Source of the DNA: a virus
Length of the DNA: 36,238 nt
Strand: one strand, 5' to 3'
Virus record (IMG/VR): IMGVR_UViG_3300032086_002567
Coordinates: 1-36,238 of that record
The position numbers and the translations under genes are program-made. The stretch's first letter is position 1, and every line of letters begins with the position of its first letter. The notes beneath the pieces were generated by a model. It made no database searches and was not told the DNA's origin. It saw only the letters and a list, made by a program, of their open reading frames with translations. Below, one piece after another: positions 5,068 to 28,884 of the stretch.

Positions 5068-5295
5068 TTAGTGCTCCTTTTGCGGTGAAGTTTTATATTT
5101 TGAAGGGCTGCACGTGAGCCAAATCTCTCTATTGCTGCCAACTCTATCCACGACACCGGTAAGGCGATATCGAAAATAAAATGCTGGCTTGCCATCGTTA
5201 GATTTGTAAATTCTTGATACACCTTGATCTGCGCTATTTTGCCACGAGATATAATCCCACCCAAAAAGCCAATTACATATCTTCCATATACTCAT
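5068..5295 (-). CDS. Conserved-looking phage protein with WDYI...WLTC pattern (75 aa)
   Basis: Reads MSIWKICNWLFGWDYISWQN, then FYFRYRLTGVVD and IWLTCSPSKY. This arrangement, an N-terminal amphipathic Trp-rich segment, a small beta domain with FRY, and a terminal WLTC, matches a family of short phage proteins of unknown function that I recall seeing. A second overlapping frame (5061-5264) lacks that pattern. The ATG overlaps the stop of the pentapeptide gene (ATGA), supporting coupled translation. Confidence 0.65.
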   Translation of the reverse strand: MSIWKICNWLFGWDYISWQNSADQGVSRIYKSNDGKPAFYFRYRLTGVVDRVGSNREIWLTCSPSKYKTSPQKEH

Positions 5296-5945
5296 TGTTT
5301 GTTATCCTCAAAACCATTTGACTCTGCTGGCGAATACTTAATGATCTTTCGCAAAATAGGCTTCCACACCTTCCACCATTCTAAAGCGCCTTCATCCATT
5401 CCTGATATTTTAGTATCACTGAACTTCCACCAATCTAAGATACTATGCTGCTCACAACCTATTTGTAAAACCTTATCCGTATAAGCTATATCGTAAGTAT
5501 CACAATGGATTGTTTTTATTGTTTTATTGTTACCACGGCAAGACCAATATACAGCGTAACGAAGGTTAGCGTAACTAAGGTCAGCGGAACTAAGGTCAGC
5601 GTAACGAAGGTTAGCGTAACTAAGGTTAGCGGAACGAAGGTCAGCGGAACGAAGGTCAGCGGAACTAAGGTCAGCGTAACGAAGGTTAGCGTAACTAAGG
5701 TCAGCGGAACTAAGGTCAGCGGAACTAAGGTCAGCGTAACGAAGGTTAGCGTAACTAAGGTCAGCGTAACTAAGGTCAGCGTAACGAAGGTTAGCGTAAC
5801 TAAGGTCAGCGGAACTAAGGTCAGCGGAACGAAGGTTAGCGGAACGAAGGTTAGCGGAACGAAGGTCAGCCCTTTCTCCTTCTTGCGATCCATTCAGCCA
5901 TAAATCATGTTTTCTTAATATTTCTTGTAATTTTTCATTATCCAT
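5292..5945 (-). CDS. Pentapeptide-repeat protein (217 aa)
   Basis: The N-terminus MDNEKLQEILRKHDLWLNG leads into 21 consecutive A(D/N)LxX units, residues about 25-130, which fold as a right-handed quadrilateral beta-helix. The C-terminal 85 residues form a separate domain (CRGNNKTIKTIHCDTYDIAY and SILDWWKFSDT). Family knowledge: Qnr and MfpA pentapeptide proteins mimic DNA and bind gyrase, but many phage members with this LWLNG start are of unknown role. The 15-base units are so alike that array length has probably changed by slippage or recombination. Confidence 0.85.
   Translation of the reverse strand: MDNEKLQEILRKHDLWLNGSQEGERADLRSANLRSANLRSADLSSADLSYANLRYADLSYADLSYANLRYADLSSADLSSADLSYANLRYADLSSADLRSADLRSANLSYANLRYADLSSADLSYANLRYAVYWSCRGNNKTIKTIHCDTYDIAYTDKVLQIGCEQHSILDWWKFSDTKISGMDEGALEWWKVWKPILRKIIKYSPAESNGFEDNKQ
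5553..5870. repeat. 15-bp tandem repeat array encoding the pentapeptides
   Basis: About 21 tandem 15-base units of the type AAGGTCAGCGTAACT, differing mainly at a few positions (TCAG/TTAG, GTAAC/GGAAC, TAAGG/GAAGG). The period matches five codons and keeps the reading frame, so gains and losses change only repeat number. Confidence 0.9.
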
Positions 5946-7360: not shown

Positions 7361-9211
7361 TTATGAGATTAAGCCTTTCTCTTGCATGTCTGCGATAAGA
7401 GTGCCAACAACATCAGCAAGCTCTGTTAATGCTACCGTGTCAGCATCAAACGCTCTGTCAGTTGTAACATTGGTTGGCGTATAGGTTCTTGTTGCAGACT
7501 CGGCGGCAGAATCAAGCAAATTGTTAAATGCTGCAAAAACTGTGCTGGAGCTAGCAACACCAGAAAAATCAGTAGTGTTATCATAACAAGTGTTATTCAT
7601 TAGTACGGTATTTGTTGGCGTTCCTGTTATATTTATTCCTGTCGCCTGCGTGTACGCTGCCGATGGCGTGGAGTCGTTGTAACAAAAATTGGCGCTAATC
7701 GTGCAGCGCGCTGGGCCGCTAATCTCTATACCTGAGTTTTGATTGCTCTTACAGTGGTTTGCTATAATATCTATAAATCTTCCCGTGGAAACCTCTATGC
7801 CGTTGTCGTCGTTGTCATAACACATATTATCAGAAATTTTACAGTGCCTGCTAACTGTTGCGCCAGTAAATTTAATCCCTGACCCTACCGAGTTAAAAAC
7901 AACATTATCTGCCACATTGCAGAAATAAGATTCCGATATCCATATACCAGAATGTTGAGTTGTATCAACTGGAGCGTTTGTCCCGCCTCCGGTGTTGCTA
8001 ATGGTATTCCCAGACACCACGCAATACTCGCTCTCATCTTCTAGATGGATCCCTTGGTATCCGCAATTATCTATAACGTTTCCAGATACTACAATATGCT
8101 TACCACCAGCAATGCCGACGCCAAACCCTGAGCTTGCCGAACCTGCATCATAATTTCTTATCACGTTATCTGTTATGTTTATATAGGGAAATGAACCCGT
8201 TGGTAGGTTTATTTCTATAGCATCACGGTTAGCTGTAAGGTTATTACCGTCAAAGGTGTTGTTCGCTATAATCATTCGCTCACCAGCTGCTGAAGAGTTC
8301 ACGAGAACACCATAAGCACCGCCAAAGAAGTCGTTATCTATTATTTTTATTCTTTTTCCTGTCGAATTATAGCTAATAGCTTGAACGTGGCCCTTGAAGT
8401 TATTCCCTTTGATAACAACATTCTCTCCCCCACTATCGCTAATGGCGAGACTATTAACAACGTCATCTAGATCAAACTCCAGCCCTGATATCTCGACATT
8501 ATCGCCAGATGAAGATAGAGCTATAGTAGCAGCGCCAAATAATTTAATAACGGGGTAGCCCTTACCTGTGACTTTTAGATTATCGGAGGTCGAAGCGTTA
8601 TTTATCTCGTATGTTCCCGTGTCGAAAATAACAGGGACTCCTAGTGTTTTTGCCTGGTTGAAAATTGCAGTGTTATCGCTTCCAGCCAAGCCCGTTGATC
8701 CAAGTTGCCTCATATTAATCTCTGAGCCGATTCTCAATACAAAGCACTTGGTGGCATCAACTGTTGATACGATAATATTGTAGCCGTTAGGTAGGTCTAC
8801 GTTTGCAGTAGTGCCAACTGTTACGCAATCATAAGTTCCGCCGCCGCCGTTACCGGTTGAGAATTCTTTAGTTTTTATTCCTTTTTCGCCAACCTTGATG
8901 TGCTTGCTTGCTGCCATGTCGGCAGTAGTTGACGGATTAAGTCTTGATCCGTCATCAATTAAAACAGATTCAGTTCTAGTTCCGCTGGTTATTGTGTAAT
9001 AGCCAGGCAAGACATAAAACTCCAAGACCCCATTTGAATCTGTCGCTGCTCCAGGTTGTGAAATTGGCGAAACCCCTGCCGAATCAGAGTAGATAGTTGC
9101 ATAAGTAGCGTCAAACTCCGATCTAACTGCAACTGCTTGAGATGCTACGATATTATCCCCGCCTGAATCGGTATCGATTAAGGCTGTAAATGAATAGTTA
9201 ACTAATGGCAT
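7361..9211 (-). CDS. Tailspike / receptor-binding protein with parallel beta-helix (616 aa)
   Basis: Residues 1-100 form a beta-rich head attachment region (VLEFYVLPGYYTI). KVGEKGIKTKEF and GNGGGGTYD begin the tailspike body. Residues about 170-540 contain repeated short strands with NN/GN turns (VISGNVIDNCGYQGI, VVSGNTISNTGG, KISDNMCYDNDDNGI), the pattern of right-handed parallel beta-helix (PbH1/pectate-lyase-like) domains. The C-terminal TYTPTNVTTDRAFDADT followed by LADVVGTLIADMQEKGLI is a tail piece seen at the end of many phage receptor proteins. It probably binds or cuts surface polysaccharide; catalytic residues cannot be assigned. Last gene of the late operon. Confidence 0.85.
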   Translation of the reverse strand: MPLVNYSFTALIDTDSGGDNIVASQAVAVRSEFDATYATIYSDSAGVSPISQPGAATDSNGVLEFYVLPGYYTITSGTRTESVLIDDGSRLNPSTTADMAASKHIKVGEKGIKTKEFSTGNGGGGTYDCVTVGTTANVDLPNGYNIIVSTVDATKCFVLRIGSEINMRQLGSTGLAGSDNTAIFNQAKTLGVPVIFDTGTYEINNASTSDNLKVTGKGYPVIKLFGAATIALSSSGDNVEISGLEFDLDDVVNSLAISDSGGENVVIKGNNFKGHVQAISYNSTGKRIKIIDNDFFGGAYGVLVNSSAAGERMIIANNTFDGNNLTANRDAIEINLPTGSFPYINITDNVIRNYDAGSASSGFGVGIAGGKHIVVSGNVIDNCGYQGIHLEDESEYCVVSGNTISNTGGGTNAPVDTTQHSGIWISESYFCNVADNVVFNSVGSGIKFTGATVSRHCKISDNMCYDNDDNGIEVSTGRFIDIIANHCKSNQNSGIEISGPARCTISANFCYNDSTPSAAYTQATGINITGTPTNTVLMNNTCYDNTTDFSGVASSSTVFAAFNNLLDSAAESATRTYTPTNVTTDRAFDADTVALTELADVVGTLIADMQEKGLIS

Positions 9212-11502
9212 TATATAACCGCCCCTTTCAATTGTTCTGAATTATTACCTGACACTATTGTAACAGTGTTACCGTTTGTTTGTATTGCAGCACCTGCCGC
9301 GCCGCCTGTTGCCGCACCGACATCACCACCTGCAACACCTAAAGACCCGCCGTTATCGCCTGCCGCTGCAATATTGCCAGCATCACCTGGGGAGCCATTA
9401 AAGGTCGTGCCTGTGCCGCCTGCGCCACCTGCGCCGCCAACTTGACCTTGACCACCACCGCCGCCTTTTCCGCCAATAGCAAACCAGCTTGGCGATTCAT
9501 TAACACATGCGCCCAAATTTCCAGCGCCTCCACCACCACCAGCAGCAATTAATCCGAAGCCATTTTCTATAATGGTGTCAGTAGTTAAATTCATAGCGTC
9601 GCCGCCAGCGCTACCGTTACCTGGAGTTCCAACCGAACAAGTTGCATCATCTGGATTTGTGTTTGCGCCTGTGCCGCCTGCGCCGCCAACGCCAACAATC
9701 CGACCCAAGACGTACAATTTAAGCGTTGCTCCAGCAAACAACGAACCCTCATCAAATGCAAACTCGCTAACTGTTGACGCCCCTAAAGTTACACCTGAAT
9801 TAATTACAACTACATACTCTCTAGCTTCTGTTGTTGTTAATTCATCAGTTAGTAAGTAGTCGGTCTTATCTTCTGTTATATATAGATCAGCTTCCGGAGG
9901 TGTTGCCGCGATATAAGAAAGGCCGGTAATTGACCAGTGGCCATCTTTATTACTTTCTTTTACTTCAATGCACTGGCAGGTGGTTTCAACATTATTGAGC
10001 CCGCCATCGACAATTTTAGCCGTGTTTATACCAAATATTGAACCAAGCCACATATTGCCGCCCGTTATTGTTCCGATATACCTTTGGTCAATGTCAAATT
10101 TAACGGTTAACGGTATTTGCGAAAATCTATTAATATTCCTTTGAGCATAAGAAGTAGCTAGCTGATTATCTTCTAACGTGTTTTCCAACCAGTTACATTT
10201 AAAGGCTTTCGGCTCTGATACGTTGTTAATATCAGCAGCGACCTCGACAACTCCATCAATCACCTGAAAGCGCTTGGTGTAATTTTTTTCTTCGTCTCCC
10301 TCGGTTGCGTTTGACTTATCCCAAAATATCGTTTGTCTCGTTATTTGCTCCTTGTAGTTTCTAGACACTTTAATAGTGTCCATCATTAAATGCTCATCTT
10401 CGTTGAATGTGATAATGGGAGTTGAAAAGTCGGGTACGGAAACAATCACAATTTCATTTGCTACGATGTCAACATACATTGAAAGGCCAGCAACCATGAT
10501 CAGCTCGTTAAATACTTTTTTGACGTCTTCTGGCTTATACAGTAATCGCGTCAAATTGTAATTAGCTAAATCTCCAGCCTTTAAAGCCGCCCAATCAACT
10601 GTTGGTATATAAGATGCTGGTATGTTGGTGTGGTCATTTATTAAAGTTGTAAAAATATCAATAATGTTTTCATCATCAAAATAGATAGCTTTTTGTATTG
10701 TTTCGCCACTTTTATGCTCAACCGCCTCAGTCCCTAAAACACCCCTAACAACCGTCAATGTTGTTGAAGTTGCCACCGTGTAACTCATAGCCTCCTTTTC
10801 TATGACGATATAGCCTGTGGCCGATACAGCCCCATATTCGTCGGTGACGGTGGTCGAAAATGTTACAGTGGTGACGCCAGCCGTTATATCTCCATTTAGC
10901 TCGCCTCGACTAACTTCTGGAATTTTAGATTTAGATCCCTCTATTAGAATTAACTCATCAACCATATTAATAGATACATTGTCGTTATTGTCTGGAAGCG
11001 TGATTGAATCAATTAAATAGCTCTCTATTTGACAGTTGGCCTCATCATAATTAAACGGGTCGTAACCTCTAATCACTCTAGCCCTGCGGTTTTTTTCATG
11101 GTTTCTTGCGAGAAGCTTCAAAAAATGGCTTCCTGTCACCCTTCTATCATCATAGGGTGATGGTAATTCGTAAGAGTCATTAGAGATAAAGTCTTTAATC
11201 GTTGCCTTTGCTGTCGCCCTAAATCCGATTGATTTGCCTGGGTCTATTTTTGGCGGTGAAGATGATAGCTTTACCAGGTTTGGAAAATGATCAACACCGA
11301 ATAATTGCTGGTCAGAGTATCGATAAGTCCTAAAATCAGCCCCTGTATAAGCCCTAGCGTCGTCGGTTGTTTTTGGCGTCCCGTAGCTATCAGCTTGCAA
11401 CGCAAATTCAGCATCCAATGCTGGGTCGTTTTTATCTAAAATAATCTCCAGGGCGGTAAAAGCAACCCGTTTAGCTTCCGCTTTTTTAATATCAAAGGTC
11501 AT
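9211..11502 (-). CDS. Tail tip / hub protein with glycine-rich C-terminal domain (763 aa)
   Basis: The N-terminal 550 residues look like a siphophage tail tip or hub protein (FTALEIILDKNDPA, FRTYRYSDQQLFGVDHFP). Residues about 600-740 are extremely glycine-rich (GVGGAGGTGANTN, AAGGGGGAGNLGA, GGKGGGGGQGQVGGAGG). Such stretches in phage adhesins, for example T-even gp38, pack as polyglycine type II helices with variable loops for receptor binding. The gene stops one base into the tailspike start. Tail position and length fit a central tip protein; the exact homologue is not identified. Confidence 0.75.
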   Translation of the reverse strand: MTFDIKKAEAKRVAFTALEIILDKNDPALDAEFALQADSYGTPKTTDDARAYTGADFRTYRYSDQQLFGVDHFPNLVKLSSSPPKIDPGKSIGFRATAKATIKDFISNDSYELPSPYDDRRVTGSHFLKLLARNHEKNRRARVIRGYDPFNYDEANCQIESYLIDSITLPDNNDNVSINMVDELILIEGSKSKIPEVSRGELNGDITAGVTTVTFSTTVTDEYGAVSATGYIVIEKEAMSYTVATSTTLTVVRGVLGTEAVEHKSGETIQKAIYFDDENIIDIFTTLINDHTNIPASYIPTVDWAALKAGDLANYNLTRLLYKPEDVKKVFNELIMVAGLSMYVDIVANEIVIVSVPDFSTPIITFNEDEHLMMDTIKVSRNYKEQITRQTIFWDKSNATEGDEEKNYTKRFQVIDGVVEVAADINNVSEPKAFKCNWLENTLEDNQLATSYAQRNINRFSQIPLTVKFDIDQRYIGTITGGNMWLGSIFGINTAKIVDGGLNNVETTCQCIEVKESNKDGHWSITGLSYIAATPPEADLYITEDKTDYLLTDELTTTEAREYVVVINSGVTLGASTVSEFAFDEGSLFAGATLKLYVLGRIVGVGGAGGTGANTNPDDATCSVGTPGNGSAGGDAMNLTTDTIIENGFGLIAAGGGGGAGNLGACVNESPSWFAIGGKGGGGGQGQVGGAGGAGGTGTTFNGSPGDAGNIAAAGDNGGSLGVAGGDVGAATGGAAGAAIQTNGNTVTIVSGNNSEQLKGAVI

Positions 11503-24387: not shown

Positions 24388-24500
24388 TTTGGCTTATTAG
24401 CATTATCAATTCTTTTAGCAAGTCGCTTTGCCTCTTTCTCTTCCATACCTTCTTTGATTAATCTGTCGTAAGTTGAGTTATCTTTTTTAGATTTTAGCAT
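24384..24500 (-). CDS. Small charged helical protein (38 aa)
   Basis: ATG 24500 overlaps the end of the preceding gene. It reads MLKSKKDNSTYDRLIKEGME and continues as one highly charged helix with alternating Glu and Lys. No motif is present. Its place between structural genes and the terminase, with overlaps on both sides, supports expression; function unknown. Confidence 0.5.
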   Translation of the reverse strand: MLKSKKDNSTYDRLIKEGMEEKEAKRLAKRIDNANKPK

Positions 24501-24805
24501 CCTGTCGCCTCCGTAGCTTGTTTAGTACACTCCCAATGTCCAACTAACCCGCCCGCTGTTGAGTCAATAATTATTTTGTAGTACTTACCATCAATTATAT
24601 CAACATCTGGAGCTAGTGTGGCTCTGTATATACCGTCACTTGCTGCAACATAAGGCATTGAGAAGCTAGCAACCGCTTGTGTGTCGTCTATGTTGTCAAT
24701 CTTGCCTGTGACAGTTGCATCATTAATGAACTCAGACGTCAATGCGTTAGTCAGAGTGATCTGAACATATATTGAATTGTCAGCCGCTAGCTCTATTGTA
24801 GCCAT
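24494..24805 (-). CDS. Small beta-rich virion-associated protein (103 aa)
   Basis: MATIELAADNSIYVQITLTN and the later strands (YRATLAPDVDIIDGKYYKII) give an Ig-like beta sandwich of about 100 residues, ending with HWECTKQATEATGC. Such one-domain proteins occur beside tail fibre or decoration genes. It follows the repeat protein directly, and a joint role on the virion surface is likely but unproven. Confidence 0.6.
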   Translation of the reverse strand: MATIELAADNSIYVQITLTNALTSEFINDATVTGKIDNIDDTQAVASFSMPYVAASDGIYRATLAPDVDIIDGKYYKIIIDSTAGGLVGHWECTKQATEATGC

Positions 24806-24806
24806 A

Positions 24807-26306
24807 CTATGCCCCGTCTATCGCATTAAATACTGAAATCTCACCTGAGATTGCCTTGTTAGCGCTTAAAACGCCTGATGTTTCTATTTTAACAGACATT
24901 TCGCCAATAACATAACCAACAACATTCACTATCTCGCCATCTCCGACTACATCACCAGAAATATATAGAGATGTTACGCCGGTTATTGACGGGTTTATAT
25001 CCAATGTTAATAAGTCGGCCGTATATGTTGCCTGCTGCCCGCTTAACTGTAAAGATATACCCTTAACTACTGATCCCGCTGAATAGCTTGTGTTTACCCC
25101 TGTGATCGCCTTTGACAATCCAATCGACAAACTTTCTATTGCTATTACCGATGAAACTCCGCCTATTGCGACTGTTGCAGAACCATCTACAGAAAGCGAG
25201 CCCATGCCATAAGTTGCACCAACCCCAGACAGTGAAACGCTAATTGAAGGGCTTGCACTCTCAGTTGAAAATGTAGAAGATAGCCCACTTAAGGCTGTGC
25301 TTAATGATGGACTTATTGATTCTATTGAGGCTGTGGCACTGACACCTGAACCGCTGACGCTTGTTGAAGCTATAACGGAATCTATTGCTGATGTTAAAGC
25401 CACTCCGGTCAACGCATCCTCAACTCCACTGGGGACACTAACAGAGCCAACGTTAGAAGATGCAGAAACGCCTGTTAATGCTTTTTCGGTTGATGATGAA
25501 AGGCTATCAATTGAATAAGAAAGGCTTAAACCCGTGATCGAAACACTAACAGAAGGCGAAACGCTATCAATCGCGCTTGTTGCGCTTTCTCCTGTTGTTG
25601 TTTTTGATAATTCTGGGCTAGTGCTTCCAGTTGATAACGTTGCTGACGCGCCGGTCAAGGCGGCCTCTACGCCACCCGCAATCTCGTTAATTGCAAACCC
25701 GAGAACTTGAGCGTCGTCACCACTGCCGGTATTATCAAAACCGCAACTAACGTCAGCGGTTCCAATCGTATCATAAGAATAGAACGCTGAGACTAGCGCA
25801 CCCATGTCGCCTTCGCCGCGATCAGACCACCCAGTTATTGGGGAAATGTTGGTAACTTGAGAGAATCCGCTCGTTACAATTTCAGCAACAAATGATTCCA
25901 CGCCGCCAATCGCAAGTGTGGCTCTAGGGTTGTTTTCGCTGCTAGAATCTATTAACTCGCTGCTTGTGCCGACCTCAGTGTCAGCGGCAGCGGTTAGCGT
26001 CATCACTATACAATGCTTACCAGTGTTTGAGCTGGTAGATATAACTGCGTCTTGCGCGCCTGTTGGGACGCTAGTACCTAAAAAGTACAAATACTGAACA
26101 GTGTGCTCTGCCGCTGTGCCAACAAACCTATGAACCCTAGTCATGGATGTGCCGCCGTACGTCACGCCAGTTATAGTGTCAGTATCATTTGTTCCCTGAC
26201 AGATGCCAACCCACACCCCGCGAGGCGTGCCGACCGGCGTAATACTCATTGTAACGTCACCGCCAAAGCCGGTATCGGTCACATGATTATCATAAGCCAT
26301 AGCCAT
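24807..26306 (-). CDS. Repeat-containing virion protein (499 aa)
   Basis: Residues 1-210 are one globular beta-rich domain (MTLTAAADTEVG, VLGFAINEIAGG). From about 213 to 455 there are roughly 12 tandem units of 20-22 residues of the form (A/S)LTGVSATxSIxSVSPSxS, predicted as regular strands, then a C-terminal cap (GEIVNVVGYVIGEMSVKI). Ser/Gly/Thr-rich solenoid repeats like this are found in phage tail-associated and decoration proteins. It is encoded immediately after the secreted beta-propeller gene. A fibre-like virion role is inferred. Confidence 0.7.
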   Translation of the reverse strand: MAMAYDNHVTDTGFGGDVTMSITPVGTPRGVWVGICQGTNDTDTITGVTYGGTSMTRVHRFVGTAAEHTVQYLYFLGTSVPTGAQDAVISTSSNTGKHCIVMTLTAAADTEVGTSSELIDSSSENNPRATLAIGGVESFVAEIVTSGFSQVTNISPITGWSDRGEGDMGALVSAFYSYDTIGTADVSCGFDNTGSGDDAQVLGFAINEIAGGVEAALTGASATLSTGSTSPELSKTTTGESATSAIDSVSPSVSVSITGLSLSYSIDSLSSSTEKALTGVSASSNVGSVSVPSGVEDALTGVALTSAIDSVIASTSVSGSGVSATASIESISPSLSTALSGLSSTFSTESASPSISVSLSGVGATYGMGSLSVDGSATVAIGGVSSVIAIESLSIGLSKAITGVNTSYSAGSVVKGISLQLSGQQATYTADLLTLDINPSITGVTSLYISGDVVGDGEIVNVVGYVIGEMSVKIETSGVLSANKAISGEISVFNAIDGA

Positions 26307-27146
26307 TTATTGAAGGGTTCCGTTGGCCTCAATGGTAGGGCAATCAAAGGTAACCGTCTGAGGGTCAAAGCTACCGTCCTCAATAGTCACGACAACATTG
26401 CCGGAAAATGTGCAAGTCTCTTCAGTGGGTGGTGGTGGGGGCGGCGGCGCTATTCCGTCAGCTTCATAGCATTGTAGTTGATCAGGTTCGCCACCAGCAC
26501 ACATCTGAGTATCGGTGAAATAAATCACTTCTGTATTGGTAAATGACACTAAATCATTAGACGACATAAAATTGCCTGACAGGTCATATTCAACAATGTT
26601 AGGCCTTGACTCGCACACTAGCACAATATTATTGCCATTCATTGCTAAGTCGCCAGCATTAACGCAACTCGGCTCGCTAAAAACCAAATCAGGATAAACA
26701 GTGCAACGGTCGCAACCGTTATCAATAAAAGAATAAACCGAACTTGAGCGTTCATCTAGTAAATAAACAACTCCGTTATGAACTGTTATACCTTCAATTC
26801 CATCGTTACCTGTTCTCGGGACGCTAACAAAGAAACGCCTTTCTACAGAACAAGTGTCAACGTTGATTACTGATATACCGTTTTTAGCTTCATTGACAGT
26901 GTAAACTTTGTTAGTTTCGAAAAACTCAACAGCTTCCAGGTCTCCACCACTGGCGCAAGACTTAGTATTTAGATCAACATATCCTTTTTTATTGTCCACA
27001 TAAGCAACGCCCCAAATTGAGCTGTATGCTCCACCACTTAGATCTGTATAGCCGCTTAGTGATTGCATTTCACCAACCGGCTCATATTCTGAAATGTTAG
27101 CAGCAGACAAAGGGAAAACAAGAAGTACCAATAAATACTTAATCAT
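26307..27146 (-). CDS. Secreted beta-propeller-like protein, SdiA-regulated-type (279 aa)
   Basis: A clear signal peptide opens the protein (MIKYLLVLLVFPLSAANI, cleavage after Ser-Ala). The body has repeated four-strand blades with GGDLEAVEF, VYTVNEAKNGISVINVD, DGIEGITVHNGVVYLLDER and CVNAGDLAMNGNNIVLVCES, closely resembling SdiA-regulated/phytase-like propellers. About ten cysteines suggest disulphides in an oxidising compartment. A Pro7 linker (about residue 235) precedes a short beta tail (CTFSGNVVVTIEDGSFDP). Signal-peptide proteins are unusual inside a morphogenesis operon; export to the periplasm or cell surface is inferred. Confidence 0.65.
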   Translation of the reverse strand: MIKYLLVLLVFPLSAANISEYEPVGEMQSLSGYTDLSGGAYSSIWGVAYVDNKKGYVDLNTKSCASGGDLEAVEFFETNKVYTVNEAKNGISVINVDTCSVERRFFVSVPRTGNDGIEGITVHNGVVYLLDERSSSVYSFIDNGCDRCTVYPDLVFSEPSCVNAGDLAMNGNNIVLVCESRPNIVEYDLSGNFMSSNDLVSFTNTEVIYFTDTQMCAGGEPDQLQCYEADGIAPPPPPPPTEETCTFSGNVVVTIEDGSFDPQTVTFDCPTIEANGTLQ

Positions 27147-27160
27147 TTTTAACCCCTTTA

Positions 27161-27619
27161 TTATGCGTTACGAATCAACCCAGTAGTTCCATCATTTGTC
27201 GGCATTGTTAAAGTAAAATCTGCCGCCGTCACAGTTTGACTACCAAAAGTATGAACTGAAATGGAGTTTTTACCTGTCGCCGTGTCGTTATAAAGCAAAA
27301 CAGCGTCGAAAGCAGTTTCTAAGGTCACATTGGAGTAGACGATTGATGCGCTGGGTGTGAAATGCGCTGTATCGCCATCTAGAGCGGGCGCTGTTGCTGT
27401 TGTAACTGTAACGCCGCCTGCTGTGTAGTTTGTGCCAGATACTTCATTGGTCGCACTATAAGCAGTTGTAGTTTTATCTACTGTGGCAGTTGCTAAATAA
27501 AGCGCCGCTTTGATTGTGTCTTTTGTCGTTCCTGCGCGAATAACGGAAGCCCCTAGAGCGGTTATCCCGTTCATAAAGTCCAGTTTTGCACTATTGCATA
27601 AAGCTTGTGTATTAGCCAT
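27161..27619 (-). CDS. Conserved phage virion-type protein (152 aa)
   Basis: Starts MANTQALCNSAKLDFMNGIT, then TTKDTIKAALYLATATVDKT, TNEVSGTNYTAGGVTV and SVHTFGSQTVTAADFTLTMP. This set of segments is characteristic of a beta-rich family recurrent in phages of proteobacteria, usually next to tail or structural genes, without a proven function. Likely a virion accessory protein. Confidence 0.7.
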   Translation of the reverse strand: MANTQALCNSAKLDFMNGITALGASVIRAGTTKDTIKAALYLATATVDKTTTAYSATNEVSGTNYTAGGVTVTTATAPALDGDTAHFTPSASIVYSNVTLETAFDAVLLYNDTATGKNSISVHTFGSQTVTAADFTLTMPTNDGTTGLIRNA

Positions 27620-27643: not shown

Positions 27644-27856
27644 TTATCCTATTGATTCTGCAAACATCTCGCCCACCACATTACTTTTAAGATGTACGTG
27701 TGGCGCTCTATGAACGCATCTATCGCCTAGCCAGTATTCTAACACGTAGGTCTTTTCGTTATCATCTTCATAGTGTATTTCGTTTTTTCTTAGAAGCGAT
27801 TCGTCCATTTGTGTGATAGGAGCGCCATCTTCTAGTTGTACGTTAATCATTGCCAT
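27644..27856 (-). CDS. Hypothetical protein (70 aa)
   Basis: The start overlaps the o-spanin stop (TAATG). It reads MAMINVQLEDGAPITQMDES and then YVLEYWLGDRCVHRAPHVHL, with a histidine-rich centre (HRAPHVH) that could bind metal. Small and acidic. No family recognised. Position between the spanins and virion genes gives no firm hint. Confidence 0.6.
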   Translation of the reverse strand: MAMINVQLEDGAPITQMDESLLRKNEIHYEDDNEKTYVLEYWLGDRCVHRAPHVHLKSNVVGEMFAESIG

Positions 27857-28137
27857 TATTTTTTACCATGAAGTTCGTTGTGCTTGTTGATCGATTCGCA
27901 TATTGAGTCAATGCGAGCTTGATAGCTGATTATGTGTTTTTCAAGTTTATCGAAAACTGGATCGGAAATAGAGTTCAATTCTTCATCGCTCAGCCTATCG
28001 CCCAGTGTTTGACTAGGGTATAGCATGCAGTTTAGGTCGCTGTGGGCTATTTCAATAGTGCTACAGCTTTGAAGCCCTATCACGCCTGCTAGCAAACTGG
28101 CTATTTTTAACCCTTTTATTAATCCGCTTTTGCTCAT
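27856..28137 (-). CDS. Outer-membrane spanin lipoprotein (Rz1-like, 93 aa)
   Basis: The preferred start at 28137 gives MSKSGLIKGLKIASLLAGVI followed by the lipobox GLQSC, a signal peptidase II site with the lipidated Cys at about residue 24. The mature part is soluble and helical (KLEHIISYQARIDSICESIN-like segments). It overlaps the inner spanin gene in another frame by 77 bases, the classic Rz/Rz1 layout. It spans the periplasm with the inner spanin and fuses the membranes at lysis. Confidence 0.8.
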   Translation of the reverse strand: MSKSGLIKGLKIASLLAGVIGLQSCSTIEIAHSDLNCMLYPSQTLGDRLSDEELNSISDPVFDKLEKHIISYQARIDSICESINKHNELHGKK

Positions 28138-28318
28138 CTTTTCGCACCTGCTGTTCAAAAACTTCCTGCTCTGCATCGATTTCAATTAACTTGTCTTTTA
28201 TTCTTACTTCTTTCTGCGCCTCCTGTTTGGCTTTTCGTTCAGACTTAGCCCACACAAAAAGAACACCACTTAATAAAGCTAAAGCGCCCGTTATTTTCGC
28301 CCAGATACCACTAAACAT
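28061..28318 (-). CDS. Inner-membrane spanin (Rz-like, 85 aa)
   Basis: Start 28318 (MFSGIWAKITGALALLSGVL) overlaps the stop of the holin-like gene; the longer frame from 28372 lies inside that gene. One N-terminal transmembrane helix (residues 4-23) is followed by a long coiled coil rich in Lys, Glu and Gln (KAKQEAQKEVRIKDKLIEID). This is the i-spanin architecture, and the o-spanin overlaps its 3' end. Confidence 0.8.
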   Translation of the reverse strand: MFSGIWAKITGALALLSGVLFVWAKSERKAKQEAQKEVRIKDKLIEIDAEQEVFEQQVRKDEQKRINKRVKNSQFASRRDRASKL

Positions 28319-28532
28319 GACTATCCGCCTTTGTTTTGTTCCTACCCCAGTAAACGCCACCGGCTGCACCAATAATTAAAGCTAAGCCTGAATAGTCAAC
28401 ATCACCACCATTCCAGTCACCATAAACCATGCCGGATATGACTAATTTAAAAAGGCAGGTTATAACGGTAATATTATACATTATTTTAGCGTTGCAGATT
28501 TTGCCGTTCGTGTCTCTTACTAAGTCATTCAC
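28311..28532 (-). CDS. Holin-like membrane protein (73 aa)
   Basis: Two hydrophobic helices, about residues 18-36 (MYNITVITCLFKLVISGMVY) and 46-62 (YSGLALIIGAAGGVYWG), with a short charged tail (RNKTKADSHV). Size, topology and place between endolysin and spanins fit a class II holin or a related small phage membrane protein. Other holin candidates exist upstream, so the assignment among them is uncertain. Confidence 0.6.
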   Translation of the reverse strand: MNDLVRDTNGKICNAKIMYNITVITCLFKLVISGMVYGDWNGGDVDYSGLALIIGAAGGVYWGRNKTKADSHV

Positions 28533-28533
28533 G

Positions 28534-28884
28534 TTAATAGCTCCAAACAGTAGGCCTTAAGCCTTCCGTGATGTCATCTAAATGAATAAAACGGCCTTGG
28601 CCTTTTTGTTTAACGCCTATGCCGGTGAACCCGTACTTAAAAGCTAGCCTTAAAACTTCGTGCGCGTGACCTCTATCACAGATAACATCTACAGCTTGGC
28701 CGCTTGCGTGGGTCTGCGTGAACCCTCTAAGATTATTATATTCTTCACATCGATAGCCACTTGAAACTAGTAAAGGTTTGTCGTATTCGTATCTAAGTTT
28801 GTTAAGTCTTTCTAATGTTTTCTCGCTAAAAGCGTACTCGTCGCAATGGGGGCACTTTAACTCGTCTTTTGAAAAGTAACTCAT
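28534..28884 (-). CDS. Endolysin, M15 peptidase (116 aa)
   Basis: SSGYRC, THASGQAVDV and RFIHLDD form the zinc site of M15 D-Ala-D-Ala-type peptidases: His59 and Asp66 (HxxxxxxD) and His101, with Asp103 near the active site. N-terminal Cys11 and Cys14 (CPHC) add a further metal-binding pair common in the M15A branch. It cleaves peptidoglycan cross-bridges. No signal peptide, so release depends on a holin. Length is normal for single-domain enzymes. Confidence 0.9.
   Translation of the reverse strand: MSYFSKDELKCPHCDEYAFSEKTLERLNKLRYEYDKPLLVSSGYRCEEYNNLRGFTQTHASGQAVDVICDRGHAHEVLRLAFKYGFTGIGVKQKGQGRFIHLDDITEGLRPTVWSY

Follow-up and report, generated by a model that had tools for sequence, protein, structure and literature searches.

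The window (the whole stretch of DNA analysed here) is a 36,238-base virus record from IMG/VR, in which the late genes lie on the minus strand. These begin with an endolysin gene (28534-28884; phrog_894, E 5e-19), an Rz-like and Rz1-like spanin pair (27856-28372; phrog_1026 at E 5e-4 for 28061-28372, with the Rz1 lipobox read by eye), a 70-aa gene, and a gene whose product matches phrog_644 in PHROGs (27161-27619). The propeller gene follows (26307-27146; ATG start, 279 aa), coding for a predicted exported five-bladed propeller protein, and then a 499-aa fibre-like gene (24807-26306), whose ATG abuts the propeller stop codon and whose product has an N-terminal domain followed by low-complexity repeats. 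A 103-aa gene 3′ of the fibre (24494-24805), with homologues in contigs L082 and L003, precedes terS, terL, a portal gene (phrog_145), and genes for a Mu F-like head protein and a scaffold, and the order ends with a P22-like coat gene (phrog_283), connectors and long-tail genes; all of these coordinates refer to the minus strand. The propeller gene therefore has the lysis genes on one side and the terminase on the other, and the gene that immediately follows it is the fibre-like one. The coordinates and strand given in a preliminary description of this DNA proved exact, and its placement of the gene within the virion gene cluster is fair, with lysis and two small genes before it and fibre-like, terS, terL, portal and head genes after it.

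The sequence AAAGGGG sits just 5′ of the propeller ATG. In the window, a scan for sigma-70 promoters returned fewer sites than in shuffled sequences, and a terminator scan somewhat more (8, versus 4.6 in shuffles with sd 2.5). No integrase was identified among the scanned window genes, which comprise part of the open reading frames. The Rz1-like lipoprotein gene overlaps the end of the Rz-like gene, and its lipobox start is internal to a listed TTG open reading frame.

A Sec-type signal peptide is predicted at residues 1-16 (27099-27146, minus strand), with cleavage after LSA or SAA; the N-terminus of the protein reads MIKYLLVLLVFPLSA/A. Signal peptides were judged with a crude home-made screen of hydropathy, charge and cleavage context applied to 44 minus-strand open reading frames of the window, among which the propeller frame has the top leader score. 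The sole other frame to be flagged (9211-11502, with a tail-fibre match) scored lower and has several charges ahead of its hydrophobic stretch. In all eight full-length members of the family (the window protein and the seven relatives described below) the leader has a K/R, then a hydrophobic stretch, then a cleavage site in an A/S context; in most of them the conserved motif (A)(D/N)(V/I)S(E/Q)Y comes next. The clean signal peptide that had been noticed from the sequence is thus borne out, both by the screen and by a comparable leader in all seven full-length relatives. A lipobox cysteine at the predicted cleavage site is absent from all eight proteins; the mature window protein has its first cysteine at residue 64, and the L091 leader has one cysteine, inside the hydrophobic run and upstream of the cleavage site. 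From these leaders we infer that the propeller protein is probably exported from the cytoplasm.

An AlphaFold2 model built from eight sequences has a mean pLDDT of 80 (about 90 across the propeller) and a pTM of 0.74, and replaces an earlier, poor model from two sequences (pLDDT 55). Model secondary structure and pLDDT delimit a propeller domain at residues ~18-228 (26463-27095, minus strand) with five blades – our own count, from the DSSP strand list – of which the last is closed by the N-terminal strand. The top structural match to the model in the PDB is E. coli YjiK (3qqz; Z 23.8, rmsd 2.6, 212 residues aligned), for which we know of no function, and the glutaminyl cyclases 3mbr, 3nol and 2iwa come next (Z 22.0-23.4), tied or nearly so with YjiK; a 'viral' fold library added many phage and giant-virus propellers to the structural matches.

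The SdiA-regulated family of Pfam (PF06977) matches the window protein at 27.8 bits against a gathering cut-off of 21 (E 1.8e-6). Six of the eight full-length proteins were scanned (all except L085 and L095), and the family is also above cut-off in L082 (24.0 bits) and L091 (23.4 bits) and below it in L090, L084 and L092 (20.8, 18.8 and 18.2 bits). The phytase-like family PF13449 (cut-off 27.6 bits) has no match in the window protein even at E<=1, and reaches only 12.8 bits in L092 and 11.9 bits in L090. Of the two families suggested in the preliminary description, SdiA-regulated propellers are therefore upheld, by the PF06977 match together with the YjiK-type fold model, and the phytase-like assignment is not supported; the AlphaFold check that it had advised gave a confident propeller from the eight sequences. 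NCBIfam and PADLOC yielded weak matches, none of which names the protein: a generic beta-propeller repeat, with the window protein below cut-off (three of eight members at E<=0.1), and a match at E 0.035 in one member.

Likeness to YjiK thus consists of the Pfam match in the window protein and the best structural match over the whole propeller, at ~15% identity; unlike YjiK, the window protein is phage-borne and has several cysteine pairs, a poly-proline spacer, and a C-terminal segment of no known family. With the glutaminyl cyclases it has a fold class in common (Z 22-23), but no glutaminyl cyclase is matched by sequence in the PDB at E<=10, and catalysis is conjecture. None of the eight full-length members, which have one or two tryptophans each, has an invariant tryptophan. 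Six glutamates (E71, E86, E118, E132, E206 and E220) are invariant in all eight and occupy similar places in successive blades, and these recurring acidic residues suggest a charged ligand or a metal site at the channel.

The window protein has exactly ten cysteines (64, 99, 145, 148, 161, 178, 216, 226, 245 and 269), where about ten had been estimated. Columns 64/99, 161/178 and 245/269 are kept in all eight full-length members, whereas six members have both 216 and 226, and L084 and L091, which are not sisters but lie on separate branches of the propeller tree, have neither; 145/148 occur only in the window protein. Every one of the eight has an even number of cysteines in its mature form. 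Partners were assigned from co-loss and order, and for 216/226 additionally from their position on neighbouring hairpin strands of the model. Paired gain and loss and even counts are as expected for disulphides in an oxidising compartment, and each protein probably forms three to five of them.

Beyond the propeller lie a poly-proline spacer (residues ~229-242; 26421-26462, minus strand) and a 37-residue C-terminal segment (26310-26420, minus strand) that in the alignment contains the invariant cysteine pair 245/269. Searches with this segment found nothing convincing outside the propeller family, the only matches being at E ~5-10, and it is modelled at pLDDT <60. It is the most conserved part of the protein, with a mean pairwise identity of 72% compared with 50% for the propeller. 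In the three pairs that were compared, this segment shows reduced synonymous divergence as well, so that the conservation may in part be due to constraint or exchange at the DNA level. The propeller gene overall is under purifying selection: dN/dS is 0.086 for L090 versus L092, the most informative pair, and 0.10 for L082/L085, which are almost identical; for L084/L082 it is 0.16 with synonymous sites close to saturation, a state that window/L082 has reached. By segment, with few sites, the values are 0.43 for the C-terminal segment (L090/L092) and 0.9 for the leader (L084/L082). Conservation in nine records, the value for L090 and L092, and the confidently modelled propeller together place the gene beyond chance.

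Stepwise alignment searches recovered eight further IMG/VR contigs with the propeller. Seven have full-length genes, 39-70% identical (L082/L083, L085, L084, L095, L090/L093, L092/L094 and L091/L096), and one is a contig-end fragment (L089/L097) with the last 67 residues of the propeller protein. The window protein has no match at E<=0.01 in collections of phage and plasmid records, and the L095 protein has a single match among phage records, at 29% identity and E 0.4, in Pseudomonas phage Deifobo. Pattern scans of cellular genome contigs returned 24 and 88 matching stretches, none of which was confirmed; such scans are incomplete – among viral contigs, an initial scan with one sequence yielded 17 stretches, none confirmed, and overlooked relatives that came to light later – and absence from cellular genomes therefore cannot be claimed. 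In the open-licence literature, where absence would prove nothing, we found neither phage-encoded SdiA-regulated or YjiK proteins nor an exported propeller that a phage encodes beside a fibre gene.

The carriers are of unlike lineages. L084 has a phrog_15 terminase, which we take to be of the GpA type, and a phrog_21 portal; L091 has a phrog_1216 portal, L095 a phrog_334 capsid, and L082 encodes a DNA polymerase and a phrog_469 tail protein. The window, L090 and L092 all have phrog_145 portals, with the terminase matches of L090 and L092 differing from that of the window. None of 80 recovered loci with relatives of the window TerL carries the propeller, and in 54 of these (by hand count) the sequence extends 3.3 kb or more upstream of terL. 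L002, the closest with full upstream sequence (80% terminase identity), is without both the propeller and the fibre-like gene. Given this diversity of carriers and the absence from the TerL relatives, the propeller gene is best regarded as a mobile accessory gene. In L002 the propeller/fibre place just before terS is taken by a 106-aa protein (5142-5462, plus strand) that is unrelated and begins like a signal peptide.

A homologue of the window fibre-like protein is encoded directly downstream of the propeller in all nine records, at spacings of -1 to +6 nt. The two genes overlap by one base (TAATG) in L082, L085 and L095, abut in the window, L090, L092 and L089, and are separated by 1 nt in L091 and 6 nt in L084; this spacing has the pattern of predicted translational coupling. 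Stop-codon readthrough joining the two proteins was considered and rejected in favour of translational coupling, as the genes abut in frame in only four of the nine records (window, L090, L092 and L089), the frames differ in L082, L085, L095 and L091, and L084 has the 6-nt gap. The preliminary view that such a protein is unexpected in a morphogenesis operon thus needs qualification, since the propeller and a fibre-like gene recur together as a unit of two genes.

PHROGs gave weak minor tail matches for the fibre-like proteins of L082 (phrog_553 and phrog_2106) and L092 (phrog_2106), and no family for those of L090, L095 and L089. Phage records held no match for the window fibre, for a propeller borne on an L091 fibre, or for three fibre-domain queries. 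The fibre-like protein is probably located in the virion, and may be a head or decoration fibre rather than a receptor-binding protein. Its tail ends vary between phages with no obvious fit to the propeller groups, and homologues of its N-terminal domain occur in L103 and L104 without a propeller upstream. Among the fibre-like proteins, that of L082 (6001-7878, plus strand) is built from many near-identical 'LTPDEVNQSQTIDSP' repeats, and a Pfam TAL_effector repeat match in it was taken as a chance match of the LTPDEVNQ-type repeat.

Propeller and fibre distances show a modest correlation (r 0.45, equalled or exceeded in 218 of 5,040 permutations), and they agree only partly because partners have been exchanged. 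Across the propeller/fibre junction, nucleotide identity between the window and L095 climbs from ~0.5 to mostly 0.7-0.77, and that between L090 and L092 drops from ~0.7-0.86 to ~0.5-0.7. The sharp change at the junction (window 26307) points to repeated recombination there. The persistent adjacency of the two families through these exchanges speaks for a functional connection and against a chance neighbourhood.

The upstream side is less regular. Spanin-like genes lie zero to two genes upstream of the propeller in six of the eight full-length loci (called by PHROGs in the window and by eye in L082, L085, L084, L090 and L092), and phrog_644 genes are upstream in L084 and L082 too. In L095 the propeller/fibre pair is flanked by the major capsid gene and a head structural gene; L091 has, immediately upstream, a gene for a 114-aa membrane-like protein and no adjacent Rz1-like lipoprotein gene. 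The lysis neighbourhood is common but inconstant, whereas the fibre partner is constant.

We tentatively propose, as the favoured reading but one that is short of probable, that the gene encodes a ligand-binding propeller that is exported and acts at the host envelope, where it would occlude a receptor or glycan, and so block superinfection and/or shield progeny from debris. The protein would be made late with its signal peptide, passed out by the host Sec system, and fold in the oxidising periplasm as a YjiK-type propeller of five blades braced by three to five disulphides, to which the poly-proline spacer and the small, conserved, disulphide-bearing C-terminal segment are added. There it would bind a cell-surface or periplasmic ligand – a receptor or surface glycan – that is also relevant to the fibre-like protein, and this binding would prevent superinfection and/or keep virions, once released, from adhering to the remains of the lysed cell. 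A protein that is predicted to be exported, disulphide-braced and made late in step with a fibre-like protein would suit such a place of action. Both the class of ligand and the occlusion of a receptor are what we infer here; the roles put forward in the preliminary description (a change of the cell surface, binding of receptor or debris, exclusion, or carriage on the virion) cannot be separated by sequence, and the pairing with the fibre-like gene favours those in receptor binding, debris binding or exclusion.

A functional parallel is offered by the superinfection-exclusion proteins Cor/Llp of T1, N15, phi80 and T5, which are likewise exported phage proteins with a disulphide. In unrelated FhuA phages, the Cor cassette directly follows the tail-fibre genes, and it is missing from close relatives that do not rely on FhuA (PMC13164509). 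Cor travels with tail-fibre genes (PMC13164509) and the propeller adjoins a fibre-like gene in nine of nine records, although that gene is only putatively tail or receptor-binding. Superinfection-exclusion proteins, reviewed in PMC11436027, are described in PMC9586334 as blocking receptors, secondary infection and useless adsorption to lysed fragments. Cor/Llp are small outer-membrane lipoproteins, whereas the window protein is a large, soluble-looking propeller with putative receptor blocking; because it has no lipobox, it would work like Cor/Llp at most, without being a member, and its anchorage at the outer membrane is unexplained.

A five-bladed phage propeller is also found in phi11 Gp45, a receptor-binding protein in which the propeller has a cavity that could hold GlcNAc and the glutaminyl cyclase 3NOL as its best DALI match (PMC4901313). 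There the propeller is a domain of a leaderless virion protein, and the window protein differs in standing alone and carrying a leader. The phi11 pattern is resembled by a 1,481-aa fibre-like protein of L091/L096 (L096:2508-6953, plus strand, extending L091:202-4185), which has its own SdiA-regulated propeller (57 bits) and no visible leader; the same phage also has the exported propeller.

Constant coupling to the fibre-like gene would also suit a virion part that is exported, matured in the periplasm and freed at lysis, its C-terminal segment then docking onto the fibre to provide a disulphide-braced adhesin unable to fold in the cytoplasm. Such docking agrees with the C-terminal segment being the best conserved region (72%), attached through a poly-proline spacer, and with the leader carried by a related fibre domain in L103. 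The conservation may, however, be partly at the DNA level, given the lower synonymous divergence in three pairs, and we know of no tailed-phage virion protein obliged to pass through the periplasm, and we consider this virion part unlikely. The wider claim, under which a tailed phage would assemble some of its adhesion apparatus beyond the cytoplasm and complete the particle only after lysis, seems to us distinctly unlikely. At L103:4805-6600 (plus strand), two adjacent genes with strong signal-peptide-like starts encode a virion-structural-like protein (phrog_692, E 3e-4) and a homologue of the window fibre N-terminal domain, and exported virion-like proteins may be a wider theme.

An enzyme of the YjiK, glutaminyl cyclase or lactonase fold class, altering the host envelope or capsule from the periplasm or from outside the cell, would accord with the closeness of the glutaminyl cyclase folds after YjiK (Z 22.0-23.4) and with the six invariant acidic residues at similar blade positions. 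Plant-type glutaminyl cyclases use an aromatic (Trp) active-site pocket, and the lack of an invariant tryptophan here, along with the lack of a sequence match to enzymes of this class, makes this rather improbable. Spanin-like genes just upstream in six of eight loci might instead point to a lysis accessory that disrupts or loosens the outer membrane together with the spanins; the position after capsid genes in L095, the lack of an adjacent Rz1-like gene in L091 and the lack of a membrane anchor on the propeller render that very doubtful. Highly improbable is a passenger gene that is carried in the late region and benefits the host or lysogen, for example in adhesion or biofilm formation: the sporadic, mobile distribution agrees with it, but the gene is always tied to the fibre-like gene in the late block, and no integrase was identified among the window genes scanned (part of the open reading frames).

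The occurrence in several unlike phages of a predicted exported propeller with a fibre-like gene hints at an action on the host surface as well as on the phage's own particle. If the propeller protein is a receptor blocker, it would represent a propeller-based exclusion or debris-shielding protein transferred among unrelated phages together with its fibre-like gene, and the pair could serve as a guide to receptors not yet known. Should it become part of the virion once exported, it would violate the rule that assembly of tailed-phage particles is completed in the cytoplasm. Under either reading, the two-gene propeller/fibre unit is small and directly testable.
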